Source: Janthinobacterium sp. TB1-E2 (GTDB taxonomy: Bacteria > Pseudomonadota > Gammaproteobacteria > Burkholderiales > Burkholderiaceae_D). Taken from it: a stretch of DNA of 64,000 nucleotides. Of this stretch, positions 51,667-58,816 are shown piece after piece. How positions within the stretch are numbered: position 1 is the first letter of the stretch; each line of letters starts with the position of its first letter. Under the pieces are notes generated by a model. It saw only the letters and a list, made by a program, of their open reading frames with translations. It did no database searches and was not told the origin of the DNA. The stretch is from contig NZ_CP142523.1 in NCBI RefSeq assembly GCF_036885605.1, positions 4,774,001-4,838,000 on the forward strand. Direction: 5' to 3'. Both the position numbers and the translations under genes were made by a program.

Positions 51667-52557
51667 TCATATGGTGCCCGGGCGCAAAGGCACGAAATGG
51701 CAATCTTCTAGGGTCTGGCTGGTCCATTCCATTTTCCCCACCCGGGTAATGAGTTGTAAGTGTTGCAATTTAGCCCCCACCGGCGCAACCAGACGCCCGC
51801 CGGGCGCCAGCTGTTCCAGCAGGGCTTGCGGGACTTCCAGGCCGGCTGCGGCAAGGATGATCCCGTCGAAGGGCGCCGCCTGCGGCAGGCCAAGCATACC
51901 ATCTCCGTACTGCAAGCGCAGATTCGACACGCGCAGCGGGCGTAGATTGGCCTTCGCCAGCTCGTGCAGAGGCCGGATGCGCTCGATCGAATACACCTCC
52001 TTCGCCACCAGCGACAGCACCGCCGCCTGGTAGCCGCAACCGGTGCCGATTTCCAGCACGCGCTGCAGCTTGCCGCCCTGGCGCATCACTTCGATCATGC
52101 GCGCCACGATGTACGGCTGCGAAATGGTCTGGTGGTGGCCGATGGGCAAGGAGGCGTCGATATACGCCTGCGACGCCAGCGCCTCGTCCATGAACATGTG
52201 GCGCGGCACGGCTTGCAGCGCGTCGAGCACGACCTGGTCCTTGACGCCCTGCTTCGCCACGCGGGCCACCATGGCCCGGCGCACGGCTTCCGAGACGAGC
52301 GGGTTTTGCCGCGGCGGCGACACGACGGCCGGCTGCGCCCGCTCATTGGCGATCGCTTGCGCGCGCGACGGCGCGATGGCCGCATGCGCGCCATACGGCT
52401 GCGCCACGCCGCGCGCCGCGTTCTGCGCCGCATTCTGCGTGGCCGTCTGCGGCGTGGCGATCCGGGACTGGGCCAGCGACTGCCCCCCGCCCTGCCTGGC
52501 GGGCTTGCCGGCCAGCGAATCGAGGGAAAGGGGGAAGGTACGCGGCTTGTCAGTCAT
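51667..52557 (-). CDS. pcm: Protein-L-isoaspartate O-methyltransferase
   Basis: SAM-dependent repair enzyme of 296 residues that methylates L-isoaspartyl residues so they can return to aspartate. The catalytic domain covers the C-terminal 210 residues ([66 protein letters not shown]). The N-terminal 85 residues are an Ala/Gln-rich low-complexity extension ([19 protein letters not shown] ...) absent from the 208-residue E. coli protein. It follows surE by 9 bases. Confidence 0.94.
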
Positions 52558-52566
52558 AGTGAGCGG

Positions 52567-53304
52567 TCATGCCAGGCCTTTTGCCAGCGCATCGAGTTGG
52601 GTGGTATGGGTCAGGTCGATCTGCAGCGGCGTGATCGATACTTTTCCATGTTCAACGGCATGGAAGTCCGTGCCCGGACCGCCTTCCTTGGCCGCGCCGG
52701 CCGGGCCGATCCAGAAGATTTCACGGCCACGCGGGTCGAGCGCGCGGATGACGGGCTCGGCCGAATGGCGCTTGCCCAGGCGCGTGGCCACCACGCCTTG
52801 CAATTGCTCGTAAGGGATGGCCGGGATGTTCACGTTCAGCAGATACGGTTTTTGCAGGGCGTCAAACTGGCGCTCGACGATTTCCCTGGCCACGCGGGCG
52901 GCCGCGTCCAGATTGGCCCAGCCGAACTGCGACTGGGAAAAGGCGATGGCGGGAATGCCGAACAGATAGCCTTCCGTGGCGGCCGCGACGGTGCCCGAGT
53001 ACAGGGTGTCGTCGCCCATGTTGGGGCCGTTGTTGATGCCGGAGACCACCAGGTCGGGGCGCTCGATGAGCATGCCCGTCAGCGCCACGTGCACGCAGTC
53101 GGTGGGCGTGCCGTTGACAAAGTAAAAGCCGTTGGCGGCCTTGTGCACGGACAAGGGCCGGTCCAGGGACAGCGAATTGGACGCGCCCGAACGGTTGCTG
53201 TCGGGCGCCACCACGACGATGTCGGCGATGGGTGCGAGCGCGTCGGCCAATGCCGCCAGGCCGGGCGCCAGGTAACCGTCGTCGTTACTGATAAGAATTC
53301 TCAT
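52567..53304 (-). CDS. surE: 5'/3'-nucleotidase SurE
   Basis: Metal-dependent nucleotidase of 245 residues that removes phosphate from nucleoside monophosphates under stress. The N-terminal [16 protein letters not shown] gives metal-site Asp residues; [14 protein letters not shown] and [11 protein letters not shown] and [26 protein letters not shown] are family motifs. It begins the surE-pcm-nlpD-rpoS block. Confidence 0.97.
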
Positions 53305-53399
53305 AACGAGATTTTACCTGAAGCAATGCCCACACTGCGCATGCCGCACGCCGATAGGCAGCATTTTTTGTGCCGCCGCGCGAAGATGGCGCACCCAGG

Positions 53400-55865
53400 T
53401 CAGCGCTGCTCGATGCGCGCTTCCGACAACGCCCCTTCCAGCGCCTGCACTTCATCTTCCTGCAAGGCCAGCAAGGCATTCAGGTCTCCTTGCAACTTGT
53501 ACATCCTTTTCAGCTGCGCCATGCCGCGCCGGCGCAGCTTGCCTGGCACGCCTGGGCGCAGCAGGCAAGACTTCAAATGTTCGGCCAGTTCGCCCGCCTG
53601 CGCATACTGTTCCCGCTCGATCATGCCTTGCAACATCGAGATCATGCTGGCCAGGGTGTCCGGCTCGGCCCCTTCGTGGCCGTTGGCGCGGCCGGCCAGG
53701 ATGGTTTCCTGCAAATGCCGCGCGCCGTCGAGCACGCTGTCCGCATGCCCGGTGACGGGGGCGTTCAACAGCCGGTCGCTACCGCTGAGCACGGCGTCTT
53801 CGAGCAGGCGCGCCGCCTCGCTGTCGCCCTGCTGCTGCAGGGTGCCGGCCAATTGCGTCTTGCTGTGCAAGGTGTCGAGGTGGTCTTCGCCCAGCAGGCG
53901 CGCATGCACTTCCAGCACCTGCTCCTGCACACTGCGCGCCGCATCGAGTTCACCGCGCCGCAGCAGCGCCTCGGCCAGCTTGCGCTGGCTCATCAGGGTT
54001 TCCGGATGGTCGAGCCCGCGCGTGCGCTCGCGCGCCGCCACCTGGTCTTCGTGCAGTTGGCGCGCGCCGGCCCAGTCGCCCTGCCCGGCCACGACGTCGG
54101 CCAGCAAGTCGCGCGTGGACAAGGTGGCCGCATGGTCGCTGCCCAGGCGCCGCTCCTGTACCTGCAGCACGGCGGCGAGCAGGCGCCGCGCACCCTCCAG
54201 GTCGCCTTCGCGCCCCAGCGCCTGCGCCAGGGCCAGCTTGCTGCGCAAGGTATCGCCATGTTCGGCGCCAAACAGGCGCTCGCGCGCCGCCACCACCGTG
54301 CCCAGCACTTGCTGCGCCTGCGCCAGCCGGCCCATGCGCAGCAAGGTGGCGGCGCGGCCATCCATCGCATCGAGGGTCAGCGGATGCTCGCCGCCCAGCT
54401 GGCGCGCATAGGTGGCCAGCACCGTATCCTGCAGCAGCAGCGCCGCCGCCAGTTCGCCCTGCAGCAACAGGGTTTGCGCCAGGCAGGCCCGGGCGGCCAG
54501 GGTGTCGGGATGTTCGCTGCCCAGCACGCGCTCGCGCACGTCGAGCACGTCTTCTTCCAGGAAGCGGGCTTCATCGAACTTGCCCAGCTGGCGCAGCAGG
54601 CGCGCCATGCCGCTCTTGCATGCCAGGCTGTCGGGATGCTCCTCACCGAGCAGGCGCACGCGGATCTCGACGCTCTGGCGGAAGGCGTCGAGCGCCTGGG
54701 CGCTGCGCCCATCCTTGCGGTACAGCTCGCCCAAACGGGCCAGGTCGCGCGCCAGCGGCAAGGCCACGGCGCGGCCCGGCTCGGCCAGCAAGGCCTGGCG
54801 CGCTTCGCTGATGGCGCCCAGCAAGGCGATTTCACGGCTCGACTGCCAGGGGAAGTAGCCACCCGTCAGCCACTGCAAAAAGGCTTCGAAGGTGCGCGTG
54901 AGGGAAAAGCGGTCGCCGCCCTGGTCGATGCGCACGGCCAGCTGCTCGCCATAGGCAAAGGTTTTCGTCTGCTGCAGCTGGACTTCGTCGAAATAGCTGT
55001 CGAGGGCGATCTGCGGCAAACCATAGGAAGTGCGCAGCAGGCGCTCGAACATGGGCTGGAAACCGGCGATGCCCTTGTGCGCGTCGCCGCGGCGCCACTC
55101 GGCGCGCTGCGCGCCATCGCCCATTTCTATGCGCGAGGGCAAGGGATACACGAGCAGCGGGCGCTGTTCGTCTTCATGGCTGCGGCGGTACTCGATGGCC
55201 CGGGTGACGAGCGCGTCGACGCCTTCCAGGCTTTGCCGGTTCGGCGTGAAGACCACCACGAGCTTTTTCGGCAGCAAGGTGGTGCAGATGCCGGCGCTGT
55301 CCGTGCGGCCCGTGCGCGAATCGACGAGCACATAGCGGAAATGCTGGGCCAGGGTATCGGCGAAGCAGCGGAACAGGGCCGGGCACGTGTCGAACAATTG
55401 ATCCCAGCGCATCTGCGCCAGGCGCTCGCTGTAGCTGGCGTCGAAGCGTCCCGCGCGCATCAGGTACAGCGGGCTGCCCTGGTCGACACGCACCACGTAC
55501 TGCTGCCAGTCGATGGCGTCGAGCACGCGCTGGGCCAGCGCCGCGTCTTCGCGTCCTGTGCCCTGCCCGCCGGCGCGCCCGCCCGCCGTTTCCAGGCTGA
55601 TGCGTTCGAGCTGCTGGCGGCACGCTTCGAAGAACTCGAGCACGCCCGGCCGCTCTTCGTGCTGCTCGAAATAATGGTGCAAGCCCGGCGCTTCCATGTC
55701 CCAGTCCAGCATCAGCACGGGCACGCTGGCGTTTTCACGGCGCGCCAGCAGGACGGCGATATTCGACAGGGCCATGGTGCGGCCGGTACCGCCCTTGTAG
55801 GAATAGAAAGTGACGACTTCGCCAGGGGCGCTCAAAGGCGGCAGGGAGAGGCGTTGGCATTCCAT
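53400..55865 (-). CDS. ParA/MinD-like KGGxGRT ATPase fused to TPR repeats
   Basis: Protein of 821 residues in two parts. The N-terminal part (about 17-215) is a SIMIBI ATPase like ParA or MinD: deviant Walker A KGGTGRT (24-30; the usual GK is GR), Walker B-like LMLDWDMEAPG (51-61) and switch-II-like LVDSRTGRTD (180-189). The C-terminal part from about 365 holds seven repeats at exactly 42 residues, marked by LGxEHPDTL-type signatures at 405, 447, 489, 531, 573, 615 and 657, a kinesin-light-chain type TPR array, then helices. It follows the TIR gene by 19 bases and has AAAGG upstream of its ATG. Similar ATPase-TPR proteins accompany TIR-like proteins in actinobacterial FxSxx-COOH clusters (from memory); the function here is unknown. 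Confidence 0.82.
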   Translation of the reverse strand: MECQRLSLPPLSAPGEVVTFYSYKGGTGRTMALSNIAVLLARRENASVPVLMLDWDMEAPGLHHYFEQHEERPGVLEFFEACRQQLERISLETAGGRAGGQGTGREDAALAQRVLDAIDWQQYVVRVDQGSPLYLMRAGRFDASYSERLAQMRWDQLFDTCPALFRCFADTLAQHFRYVLVDSRTGRTDSAGICTTLLPKKLVVVFTPNRQSLEGVDALVTRAIEYRRSHEDEQRPLLVYPLPSRIEMGDGAQRAEWRRGDAHKGIAGFQPMFERLLRTSYGLPQIALDSYFDEVQLQQTKTFAYGEQLAVRIDQGGDRFSLTRTFEAFLQWLTGGYFPWQSSREIALLGAISEARQALLAEPGRAVALPLARDLARLGELYRKDGRSAQALDAFRQSVEIRVRLLGEEHPDSLACKSGMARLLRQLGKFDEARFLEEDVLDVRERVLGSEHPDTLAARACLAQTLLLQGELAAALLLQDTVLATYARQLGGEHPLTLDAMDGRAATLLRMGRLAQAQQVLGTVVAARERLFGAEHGDTLRSKLALAQALGREGDLEGARRLLAAVLQVQERRLGSDHAATLSTRDLLADVVAGQGDWAGARQLHEDQVAARERTRGLDHPETLMSQRKLAEALLRRGELDAARSVQEQVLEVHARLLGEDHLDTLHSKTQLAGTLQQQGDSEAARLLEDAVLSGSDRLLNAPVTGHADSVLDGARHLQETILAGRANGHEGAEPDTLASMISMLQGMIEREQYAQAGELAEHLKSCLLRPGVPGKLRRRGMAQLKRMYKLQGDLNALLALQEDEVQALEGALSEARIEQR

Positions 55866-55884
55866 GACAGGACCTTTTACGTGA

Positions 55885-56490
55885 TTAACGTGGAAAGTGG
55901 GGAGGCGGAATGGCGCGCCATTCCGGTGGAATATCGGGCAACACGAAACGGCTGCAATCGTGGCCGGGCGGTGTTGACCGCTTGAGCAAGTGGTAATGCG
56001 TGGCGATGCGCTGCACGATGCGTTCGATGTCGGGCAGATATTGAGGGTTTGACTTCAGGTCGCCGCTGGCCAGCGTATAGCCGGAAAAATCGACGTACAG
56101 GCCCGACTCGGTGATTTGCGGCGGCAAGCCGTCCGGATGGCGCGTCATGATGATGGGAATGATCAGGTGGCTGGGCAGTTCATACCAGGCGCGCCGCTCC
56201 TGTTCGATCAGCTGCATGGCGGCAAATTCGCGCCGCGTATAGCCGTGCGCTTCATATTTGGGCGTGTACAGCACGATCATGCAGACGCTCTGGCACATGG
56301 CGCGCGCCACGCGCAAGTCGATATCGTCGCCGCCGCCCAGCTGCTCGCTGTCGATGAACAGGACCTCCTCGCGGTCCAGGTGCGGCTCCAGATAGCACGC
56401 CAGCGCCTCGATGAGGTCATTCTTGAACTTGTTCATGAACGCATATTGGCCGTGTGCATAACTCAAGAAACAGCCGTAGCGGATCTCCAT
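55885..56490 (-). CDS. TIR-domain protein
   Basis: Cytoplasmic protein of 201 residues with a TIR domain in residues 1-150. It starts MEIRYGCFLSYAHG (the BB/alpha-A FxSY signature), has VLFIDSEQLGGGDDID, the SVCMIVLYTPKY strand and YTRREF, where Glu88 sits in the position of the NADase catalytic Glu. The remainder (IIMTRHPDGLPPQI ... DIERIVQRIATHYHLL) is not recognised. Family knowledge: many bacterial TIR proteins degrade or convert NAD+ in anti-phage defence. The start at 56490 gives the family N-terminus; an ATG at 56523 is possible. It is the first gene of a two-gene operon with the ATPase-TPR gene. Confidence 0.82.
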   Translation of the reverse strand: MEIRYGCFLSYAHGQYAFMNKFKNDLIEALACYLEPHLDREEVLFIDSEQLGGGDDIDLRVARAMCQSVCMIVLYTPKYEAHGYTRREFAAMQLIEQERRAWYELPSHLIIPIIMTRHPDGLPPQITESGLYVDFSGYTLASGDLKSNPQYLPDIERIVQRIATHYHLLKRSTPPGHDCSRFVLPDIPPEWRAIPPPHFPR

Positions 56491-56628
56491 GGCATCCCCC
56501 TGTTCCCAGTGCGGCCCTGCCATCGCCGCGCCTTGCCCCTGTAAGGCATGGGCTCACTGTAGACCGCTCAGCAACAACCCTTTTGCGCTGGCGCAAAGAT
56601 GTGTCTGGCGTCCTGGACATGCGTCACA

Positions 56629-56666
56629 ATGCCAGAAACTGGCGTGATCGCGCCGCTTTCTGGCAT
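56629..56666. promoter_or_regulatory. Perfect 10-bp inverted repeat upstream of the TIR operon
   Basis: ATGCCAGAAA (56629-56638) and TTTCTGGCAT (56657-56666) are exact inverted repeats with an 18-base spacer, and the spacer holds another GGCG/CGCC pair. It lies 139 bases upstream of the TIR start and 95 bases downstream of the dinG stop. It may be an operator for the TIR operon; no clear -10/-35 was fixed. Confidence 0.45.
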
Positions 56667-56731
56667 ACCAGGCGCGCAAGCGGGCGCCGTGTGAAAAAGC
56701 GCTACTCGCTTGATAATAAAGGGAAATAAGC

Positions 56732-56753
56732 CGGCGCGCGGATGGCGCCGGCA
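56732..56753 (-). terminator. dinG terminator
   Basis: The stem GCCGGCGC/GCGCCGGC, with a 6-base loop, is followed on the minus strand by TTATTTCCCTTTATT. It ends the DinG-family gene before the TIR operon. Confidence 0.75.
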
Positions 56754-56761
56754 AGCGGGGC

Positions 56762-58816
56762 TTAAGCGCCCTTGGCGGGCAGGTTGCGGAAGAACTCCAC
56801 CACTTCGGCGGTATCGCGCGTGCGCTTGAACGGCGGCAAGCTTTGCCAGATGCGCTTGCCATACGGCTTGGAAATGAGACGCGGATCGCAAATCATCAGT
56901 ACGCCCCGGTCGCCTTCGTCGCGGATCAGGCGGCCCGCGCCCTGCTTCAGGTTGATGATCGCTTCCGGCAGCGAGTGGTGCATGAAACCGTTCTTGCCCT
57001 GCTTTTCCATCACTTCGATGCGCGCGGCCAGCACGGGGTCGTCGGGCGGTGCGAACGGCAGCTTGTCGATGATGACGAGGGACAGCGCATCGCCGCGCAC
57101 GTCGACGCCTTCCCAGAAGCTCTGGCTACCGATCAGCACGCCATTGCCGGCCGCGCGGAACTGGTCGAGCAATTCCGTGCGGCCCTTTTCTCCCTGCACG
57201 AACAGGGGGAAGTTCAGGCCCCGCTGCCGGAATTCGTCGGCCAGGCGCTCGGCGGCCCGCTTGACGGCGCGCAAGGTGGTGCACAGGAAGAAGGTGCGCC
57301 CGCCCGCCGCCTCGATGATGGGCAAGGCGCAGTCGATGACGGCGTCCGTGTAGCCGAGCGAGTTCGGTTGCGGCAGGTTTTGCGGCACGAACAGCAAGCC
57401 CTGCTGGCCATAGTCGAACGGCGACGGCCACGTATGCGACGGCTCGCCCGTCAAGCCCATCTGTTCGGAAAAATGCTTGAAATCGTTTTTCACGGCCAGG
57501 GTGGCGGACGTGAAAATCCAGCTGCGCGGCGTGCCTTCGCGCTGGTTGTTGAAGATCGGCGCGATCGACAATGGCGTTTTATGCAACTGCAGGGAGCTGG
57601 AAAACGCTTCCACCCAGAACACGGCTTCCTCGCCGGCCGCTACCTTGGCCTTCGGATCGAACTTCCAGCCGCTCAGCTGCTGCGCCAGCTCGACGCCGCG
57701 CACTCTGCACTGCTCCAGCGTTTCCGCCCGTTCCGCCTGGGTTTCCAGCACGGCCACCATGCCATCGAGCTCATCCTTGAGGGTGTCGAGCGCGGGGAAA
57801 AAGTCGCTCGACGGGGCGATCTGCGGCAGGGACATGCGCACGATGTCTTGCGGGAAGGTCAGACGCAGGTCGCGCGCCGCCTTTTCCACCACCGTGACGG
57901 TCTTGGCCCAGTCGATGCCACGGGCGTGCGCGAGGCCTTCGGCCAGCACGTCGCGGCACAGTTCGAGGATTTGCGAGGTCGACACCGTATTGCCAAAGAA
58001 CAAAGTGGCCGTATCGGGCAGCTGGTGCGCCTCATCGAAGATGATGGTATTGGCCGACGGCAGCAATTCCGCCACGCCCGTGTCCTTCAGGGCCACGTCG
58101 GCAAAGAACAAATGATGGTTGACCACCACCACGTCAGCCTGCTGGGCTTCCTTGCGGGCCTTCATCACGAAGCAATCCTGGTAGTACTGGCACTCGGCGC
58201 CCATGCAGGTATCGCGCGTGGACGTCACCAGGTTCCAGATCATGGCGTTTTCCGGCACCTTGGCCAGCTCGGCCTTGTCGCCGGAACTGGTCATCTTGAT
58301 GAAGCGCGAGATTTCGCGCAGATGGCCCACGTCGTCGCGCGACGTCATGCGGCCGTTCTGCAGCGTGCGTTCCAAATGATAGTGGCAGACGTAGTTCGAG
58401 CGGCCCTTGAGCAAGGCAACGGAAACGGGCGCCTGCAGCGCGGCGCGCACGGTGGGGATATCGCGCAGGAACAATTGATCCTGCAAGTTCTTCGTGCCCG
58501 TGGATACGATGGTCTTGCCGCCCCACATCAGGGCCGGCACCAGATAAGCGAAGGTTTTGCCGGTGCCCGTGCCCGCCTCGGCGATCAGGGTCGTCTGGCT
58601 GTCGATGGCGCTGGCGATGGCTTTCGCCATTTCCGTTTGCGAACGGCGCGGCTTGTAGCTGCCCACGGCGGGACCGAGCGGGCCGCCGGCGCCAAACAGG
58701 CGCTCGATGTCGGCATCGTGCTTGCCAGGCGCCGCCTGCGGTTCGGCTGGCAGACTGGCTTGCAGATCGGCCGGCTGGCCATCTGGGCTTACTGGCAATG
58801 AATTGTGATCGGTCAA
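56762..58816 (-). CDS. DinG-family ATP-dependent DNA helicase
   Basis: XPD/DinG-type superfamily 2 helicase of 684 residues that unwinds DNA 5'-3'. It has Walker A AGTGTGKT (81-88), the Fe-S cluster cysteines (CHYHLERTL, DTCMGAEC, YQDCF), the DEAH box (DEAHQLPD) and the C-terminal motifs (SQSFWEGVDVRGDALSLVIIDKLPF, QGAGRLIRDEGDRGV). E. coli has two homologues, DinG and YoaA; this one is closer to YoaA in length but the name is left open. It follows the ydcH-like gene by 43 bases. Confidence 0.9.
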   Translation of the reverse strand: MTDHNSLPVSPDGQPADLQASLPAEPQAAPGKHDADIERLFGAGGPLGPAVGSYKPRRSQTEMAKAIASAIDSQTTLIAEAGTGTGKTFAYLVPALMWGGKTIVSTGTKNLQDQLFLRDIPTVRAALQAPVSVALLKGRSNYVCHYHLERTLQNGRMTSRDDVGHLREISRFIKMTSSGDKAELAKVPENAMIWNLVTSTRDTCMGAECQYYQDCFVMKARKEAQQADVVVVNHHLFFADVALKDTGVAELLPSANTIIFDEAHQLPDTATLFFGNTVSTSQILELCRDVLAEGLAHARGIDWAKTVTVVEKAARDLRLTFPQDIVRMSLPQIAPSSDFFPALDTLKDELDGMVAVLETQAERAETLEQCRVRGVELAQQLSGWKFDPKAKVAAGEEAVFWVEAFSSSLQLHKTPLSIAPIFNNQREGTPRSWIFTSATLAVKNDFKHFSEQMGLTGEPSHTWPSPFDYGQQGLLFVPQNLPQPNSLGYTDAVIDCALPIIEAAGGRTFFLCTTLRAVKRAAERLADEFRQRGLNFPLFVQGEKGRTELLDQFRAAGNGVLIGSQSFWEGVDVRGDALSLVIIDKLPFAPPDDPVLAARIEVMEKQGKNGFMHHSLPEAIINLKQGAGRLIRDEGDRGVLMICDPRLISKPYGKRIWQSLPPFKRTRDTAEVVEFFRNLPAKGA

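Follow-up and report, generated by a model that had tools for sequence, protein, structure and literature searches.

A near-universal, apparently vertically inherited TIR gene pair beside surE in the Janthinobacterium-Duganella-Massilia group, with a partner P-loop motif lost in one half of the clade

In bacteria, TIR genes are commonly classed as accessory defence genes with a fast turnover. The locus described here raises the question of whether a TIR-domain gene and the ATPase/TPR gene that follows it belong to that class or to the resident equipment of the cell. The pair lies in a stretch of 64,000 nucleotides (nt) of Janthinobacterium sp. TB1-E2 (contig NZ_CP142523.1, positions 4,774,001 to 4,838,000; hereafter the window), for which a reading made from the sequence alone (the sequence-only reading) had proposed a candidate immune or signalling system that might be strain-variable. 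Judged by the sequences compared, the pair is near-universal and apparently vertically inherited in the Janthinobacterium-Duganella-Massilia group. Across the whole group the TIR gene is fixed beside the surE-pcm-nlpD-rpoS cluster, with constraint like that of housekeeping genes, so that a TIR module with the look of an immune system may have turned into a standing part of the cell.

Of the 172 genomes sampled from five genera, 163 gave a match to the TIR gene; the family's other 220 gave none (163/392 genomes and 5/44 genera family-wide; the genus of each genome was assigned from a surE search). Counts per genus are 36/40 (the window's genus), 5/5, 17/17, 51/56 and 54/54, including one weak match (3.0e-15) in a draft genome, G261. 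Carriers in the named scan (best 80 of 146 matches) belong to Janthinobacterium, Duganella, Rugamonas, Pseudoduganella and Massilia, and a phylum-wide search at 1e-10 matched 2/349 genomes, both from these five genera. The partner was matched at 1e-20 in 167/392 genomes of ten genera; outside the five genera the matches are only weak (about 1e-25 to 1e-33). Another TIR gene of the window genome, used as a control, is found in 1/25 same-genus genomes, versus 22/25 for this one.

The genomic position is equally constant. In 78 loci, hand-picked from the listed matches for spread, gene order does not vary; surE and dinG are each present in 74, and the placement between these two conserved genes given by the sequence-only reading holds. 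The TIR locus adjoins surE in all 74 loci containing it, and the distance from the partner stop codon to surE is 54-481 nt in 72/73 loci (3,830 nt in one). Where surE is lacking, the locus either stops at a contig end (L103, L104, L127) or runs about 1.6 kb beyond the partner without reaching it (L134). Where dinG is lacking, the locus starts near a contig end (L134, L135) or a local rearrangement has left about 8 kb without dinG (L093, L094). No TIR match was found in plasmid and phage collections at E up to 0.01. A lone match in viral contigs was rejected as chance; its open reading frame (ORF) resembles a phage portal protein by eye. The partner core gave no match in phages at 1e-6 and matched nine distant plasmid records. 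The pair thus does not show the patchy, mobile distribution of accessory defence genes, and the idea of a strain-variable or mobile island is ruled out by distribution, fixed synteny and the tree of flanking genes. Strain variability, suggested by the sequence-only reading, is refuted by the 163/172 genomes and the fixed neighbours; presence in every related genome with housekeeping partners, which that reading had named as the outcome that would speak against defence, is nearly what was found.

The flanking-gene tree is built from six proteins (FastTree, 95 rows; 6/101 rows were excluded: two 10-base placeholders and four short stretches). The carriers form one clade, and 12 non-carrier outgroup rows fall outside it. 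TIR presence changes five times on this tree, most simply by one gain and four losses; L157, labelled as a non-carrier in the tree, has both genes and is counted as a TIR carrier. Over 72 rows, flanking-gene distances correlate with TIR distances (r = 0.77; best of 500 permutations, 0.09) and with partner-core distances (r = 0.87). L117 and L137, whose frameshifts may be assembly errors (genome G284 is 48% complete), are left out of this comparison. The median ratio of nonsynonymous to synonymous substitution rates (dN/dS; Nei-Gojobori estimates on pairs chosen by hand and filtered on dS, as distinct from a site test) was calculated against the window within its own genus (19 or 20 loci each): 0.060 for TIR, 0.053 for the partner core and 0.185 for the TPR part, which evolves about three times faster than the core. 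Flanking genes give 0.045 (dinG), 0.062 (zapE), 0.044 (rlmD), 0.073 (rpoS), 0.080 (surE), 0.139 (nlpD) and 0.140 (pcm). Distances, synteny and flanking-gene tree indicate one gain, vertical descent and housekeeping-like constraint. The pair was most likely acquired a single time, immediately upstream of surE, by the ancestor of the Janthinobacterium-Duganella-Rugamonas-Pseudoduganella-Massilia group, with few losses since.

Both genes are on the minus strand, which the sequence-only reading had left unsaid. The TIR gene precedes the ATPase/TPR gene (ORF 53400-55865, 821 amino acids, aa) by 19 nt, the gap given in that reading; it is 8-23 nt in 70/77 loci. Both domain calls are borne out by library profiles: the TIR protein scores 35.5 bits against Pfam TIR_2 (cut-off 28), and the partner, whose Walker A motif has the deviant form that had been described, scores 122.1 bits against NCBIfam AAA_KGGVGR (NF047398; cut-off 90). 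Pfam TPR_10 matches the partner in seven stretches. The "seven exact 42-residue TPR repeats" of the sequence-only reading are exact in spacing (42 aa, 126 nt) but not in sequence: eight 42-residue units have a mean pairwise identity of 0.34 (range 0.17-0.48), and Tandem Repeats Finder listed no array at this region. Partner length varies from 346 to 912 aa across members (broken copies excluded), some having few or no TPRs. In L093, L094 and L096 a partner of 346-350 aa, with intact KGGVGRT and no TPR part, adjoins a normal TIR gene.

The TIR active site is invariant. A glutamate with an aromatic residue four positions before it, the pattern of NADase TIRs, is found as Tyr/Phe84-Glu88 in 79/79 TIRs (window included), and the candidate catalytic Glu88 proposed at the outset is therefore present throughout. 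Its position is presumably that of the catalytic glutamate of NADase TIRs, and the aromatic position is likewise taken to have a catalytic role. The TIR profile gave four weak HMMER matches to PDB sequences (E 0.31 to 0.75); in these alignments to solved TIR domains Glu88 falls on a glutamate, and Tyr/Phe84 and Glu88 align to Trp and Glu of AbTir (weak, E 0.75). The predicted structure has a TIR fold, its nearest folds including the SPARTA defence TIR; at E up to 0.001, Foldseek also matches the model to an oxidoreductase that is not a TIR protein (3k1y). Fold and site suggest that the TIR protein is probably an NAD+-cleaving enzyme.

The partner differs from this constancy. The ParA/MinD Walker A motif is KGGxGK[ST], with two lysines. 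The partner core has the ParA/MinD fold and lacks the motif with both lysines, position 29 being Arg in 76/78 rows. The carriers fall into two halves, to which inferred organism names are attached: clade A (Massilia-like) and clade B (Janthinobacterium, Duganella). Lys24 is kept in 36/39 rows of clade B (2 Arg, 1 Gln), versus Glu in 32 and Asp in 6 of the 38 non-gap rows of clade A, where Gly28 is also lost in 38/38. The deepest clade A row, L157, carries the changed motif as well, and Lys24 changes four times in total on the flanking-gene tree. The aligned sequences place the loss of the P-loop at the root of one of the clade's two halves, with the TIR site intact throughout; a P-loop-less partner is found in about half of the sampled group members. 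Three clade A members score 70.7-79.2 bits against NF047398, below its cut-off. Median TIR dN/dS is 0.104 in clade A versus 0.052 in clade B (14 and 13 pairs); the clade A partner core is under weaker, still purifying, constraint. Because a sub-clade has lost the P-loop with the TIR site intact, classical ParA ATP hydrolysis would not be needed for the conserved job, and the unequal P-loop fate and constraint suggest that classical ParA ATP cycling is not what selection keeps group-wide. The original proposal that the TPR-ATPase licenses the TIR is at odds, if ATP turnover is meant, with the half of the clade that has no P-loop.

A conserved palindrome and a -10-like hexamer precede the TIR gene (Table 1). 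The palindrome is kept at 12/12 fixed positions in 36/79 loci and at at least 8 in 79/79. Among 1,580 shuffled upstream stretches, 0 reach 12, 8 reach at least 10 and 613 reach at least 8, so that the 11 lowest-scoring loci are not significant alone. A hexamer TANA[GT]T, a form picked after inspecting the rows, follows in 79/79 loci (20 nt away in 69, 21 nt in 10; 0.4% of shuffles, three offsets). This spacing puts the palindrome centre near -40.5, where class II activators sit; the half-site is taken to resemble Crp/Fnr sites. The pair is probably expressed from its own promoter, with the palindrome at an activator position; since a consensus scan of 52400-57000 found no sigma-70-type promoter, conservation is the one basis of this call. 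Exact palindrome sites number seven in the genome, versus one for a reversed-pattern control. Three of the six others are inside ORFs and three between ORFs, the latter preceding, as judged by eye, an alcohol dehydrogenase ORF in one case, an unnamed protein of 465 aa in another, and phasin and amidohydrolase ORFs in the third.

Table 1. Features of the TIR locus. Positions are those of the window.
Feature	Position	Strand	Characteristics
TIR-domain protein, 201 aa	55885..56490	-	Tyr84/Glu88 aromatic-x3-Glu site, BB-loop LGGGDD, conserved C-terminal tail
Partner ParA/MinD-like core, residues 1-345	54831..55865	-	Deviant P-loop KGGTGRT at residues 24-30
Partner KLC-type TPR superhelix, residues 346-821	53400..54830	-	42-aa period; length differs between species
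Palindrome TTTGCG-N4-CGCAAA	56582..56597	-	Upstream of TIR gene; 68/79 loci match at least 10 of 12 fixed positions
-10-like hexamer TACAGT	56556..56561	-	20 nt past the palindrome
Terminator-like hairpin after dinG	56730..56752	-	One of six such sites in the scanned stretch; 3.4 expected by chance
surE promoter-like element TTGCTTCAGGTAAAAT	53305..53326	-	TAAAAT within 22 nt upstream of surE in 103/104 loci

Between the partner and surE, the scan listed no terminator-like site. Co-transcription with surE-rpoS was considered as the reason for the place of the locus and rejected: surE has its own promoter-like element, which is independent of the pair, occurring in loci with or without it and in seven outgroup rows. 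No functional link to surE-rpoS is claimed for this reason. The element (TTGCTTC..GTAAAAT) ends a few bases before the surE start codon in nearly all relatives, outgroups included, and its closeness to the ATG suggests a leaderless surE transcript. Among the neighbouring genes, a quinone-oxidoreductase-like gene (by eye) lies on the opposite strand between dinG and surE in an outgroup (L142:7569-8549); a clade A genome has such a gene between dinG and TIR (L118:7648-8793), and none is there in the window. Elsewhere in the window genome, two other TIR-domain genes are adjacent to each other (L055:877-2684, near 3.53 Mb); the 257-aa TIR gene of this couple is found in 0/40 other relatives.

The reading preferred here, given an even chance of being right, makes the pair a TIR sensor-effector module that is resident in the cell and passed on vertically, the TIR being gated by a TPR scaffold without ParA-type ATP cycling. 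Gene order, distribution, constraint, loss of the motif and conservation of the promoter are observed; enzyme activity, two-protein contact, gating, cue and output are inferred from them. The partner would probably be an activating scaffold whose TPR superhelix binds a protein or peptide cue; its ParA-like core would dock or cluster TIR molecules; and NAD+ cleavage by the TIR would be gated by contact and clustering, not by an ATPase cycle. That the function is a resident one, whether immune or of another kind, is indicated by distribution and constraint, the choice of function being conjectural.

Several points weigh against this reading. Only one of the five AlphaFold models of the TIR is confident (mean predicted local distance difference test score 87.1; the rest, 73.1 to 38.6). 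Residual nucleotide binding by the partner is possible, since Arg29 (76/78) and Asp54 (77/77 non-gap rows) are nearly invariant. Median partner-core dN/dS is 0.278 in clade A versus 0.082 in clade B (14 and 13 pairs), and the weaker constraint could be slow decay. The pair is also dispensable, because 9/172 genomes gave no TIR match and in a tenth, G395, no more than a remnant lacking Glu88 is left. Among the nine, three genomes of the window's genus (G021, G026, G013) have their dinG and surE matches 82-148 bp apart; the contig of G001 starts beside surE and allows no judgement. In genus g42, G181, G262 and G290 have 214-236 bp at the site, G387 retains a partner fragment and G155 has 1.3 kb matching neither gene. 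The G395 copy (L155:7209-7616), counted among the 163, is decayed: a deletion has removed Glu88 and the partner core and fuses the first part of the TIR in frame to the TPR part. An immune job, finally, is plausible because plasmid KGGVGR relatives sit near TIR, SIR2 and caspase genes.

These relatives also bear on the main rival, which is rather unlikely: a fixed anti-phage abortive-infection system, in which a phage product, sensed by the TPR partner, would trigger NAD+ depletion by the TIR. It would account for the NADase-type site, the closeness of the predicted fold to the SPARTA TIR, the conflict-type neighbourhoods of partner-core relatives on plasmids, the matches of 17/41 TIRs to Thoeris ThcB4 (E up to 0.001), the match of the partner to a PADLOC candidate family (PDC-M28B) and the faster evolution of the TPR part. 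It agrees less well with a fixed locus, an apparent single gain and housekeeping-like dN/dS, with the lack of a TIR match in the plasmid and phage collections beyond the chance one in viral contigs, and with the lack of a named PADLOC system. A tentative proposal, less likely than not, is that a TIR module descended from immunity has been domesticated and now serves a core signalling or stress pathway linked to NAD+ in a whole bacterial group, with its own conserved activator-type promoter and, in half of the group, a pseudo-ATPase partner, in which the acidic residue fixed in place of the signature lysine could pair with the retained Arg29 and lock the fold without nucleotide. It is improbable that the pair is a scaffold, with the TIR as an assembly module free of enzyme activity, used for example in positioning like the ParA/McdA systems: Glu88 and its aromatic companion, kept in 79/79, would be superfluous in a pure scaffold. 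A toxin-antidote pair, with the partner restraining a toxic TIR, would suit the two-gene layout and its short gap; a fixed locus with a vertical pattern, and L062 (genome G003), where the TIR gene is intact, its last part being altered, and no partner was matched, make it very improbable.

The sensor-effector reading is open to experiment: natural variants at one locus (P-loop kept or lost, TPR lost, TIR alone, both absent) make the roles of the ATPase core, TPR and TIR testable in native genes.

With respect to known systems, a literature search recognised no published description of this gene pair. The sequence-only reading could name no described defence system with this exact pair, and PADLOC gave no named system and candidate families only, PDC-S66 (E 0.05) and PDC-M28B (3.1e-14, 2.9e-05), and the window TIR scores 14.6 of the 220 bits required for type III Thoeris ThcB4. 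SPARTA TIR-APAZ, AbTir and SARM1 TIR share, by model comparison, the TIR fold, but are about 10-18% identical and have other partners.

NF047398 is a domain family whose library entry gives no function; 28/28 partner relatives match it at E up to 0.001, and 35/299 genomes of the phylum have a protein above its cut-off. A search of 29 KGGVGR loci of the phylum (L249-L277), reaching about 1.5 kb, brought no ORF that matched the TIR profile (E up to 0.1), the profile being narrow and liable to miss other TIRs. Among the nine plasmid records (26-36% identical), three rhizobial and cyanobacterial proteins have the same core, and Pfam matches no TPR in them at E up to 0.01. In L280 a TIR domain is joined to the core and further TIR genes are nearby; L281 has SIR2 and P-loop NTPase genes nearby; in L284 the core is fused to EAD10 and an NTPase and adjoins a caspase gene. 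Genome G077, which belongs to the same family, has on contig 3 (L263:202-2658) a second KGGVGR protein with an ORF before it that is MqsA-like by eye, and a KGGVGR protein of a Rhizobium phaseoli plasmid (L282) follows an annotated antitoxin of the MqsA family; this couple is possibly a separate two-gene system.

The FxSxx-COOH gene set, named at the outset as the nearest layout, stands as domain kinship and not as membership. At E up to 0.001, 41/41 aligned TIRs match FxsC_Nterm (FxsC, NF040588) and 26/28 partners match FxSxx_TPR (FxsT, NF040586), but the window proteins score below both curated cut-offs (38.4 of 130 bits for FxsC; 173.3 of 300 bits for FxsT). The FxsB radical SAM protein is below cut-off genome-wide (two weak matches, 35.4 and 23 of 370 bits), the window partner has no NB-ARC/AP-ATPase domain at E up to 0.1, and FxSxx systems are actinobacterial, the pair being from a different phylum. 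Kaur et al. 2020 (PMC7159879) describe FxSxx stand-alone peptide-processing systems that are linked to an AP-ATPase carrying an inactive MinD/ParA-like domain, with AP-ATPase-TPR proteins and TIR domains. The pair is not filed as a member of the FxSxx-type module; it is related to that module and may work likewise.

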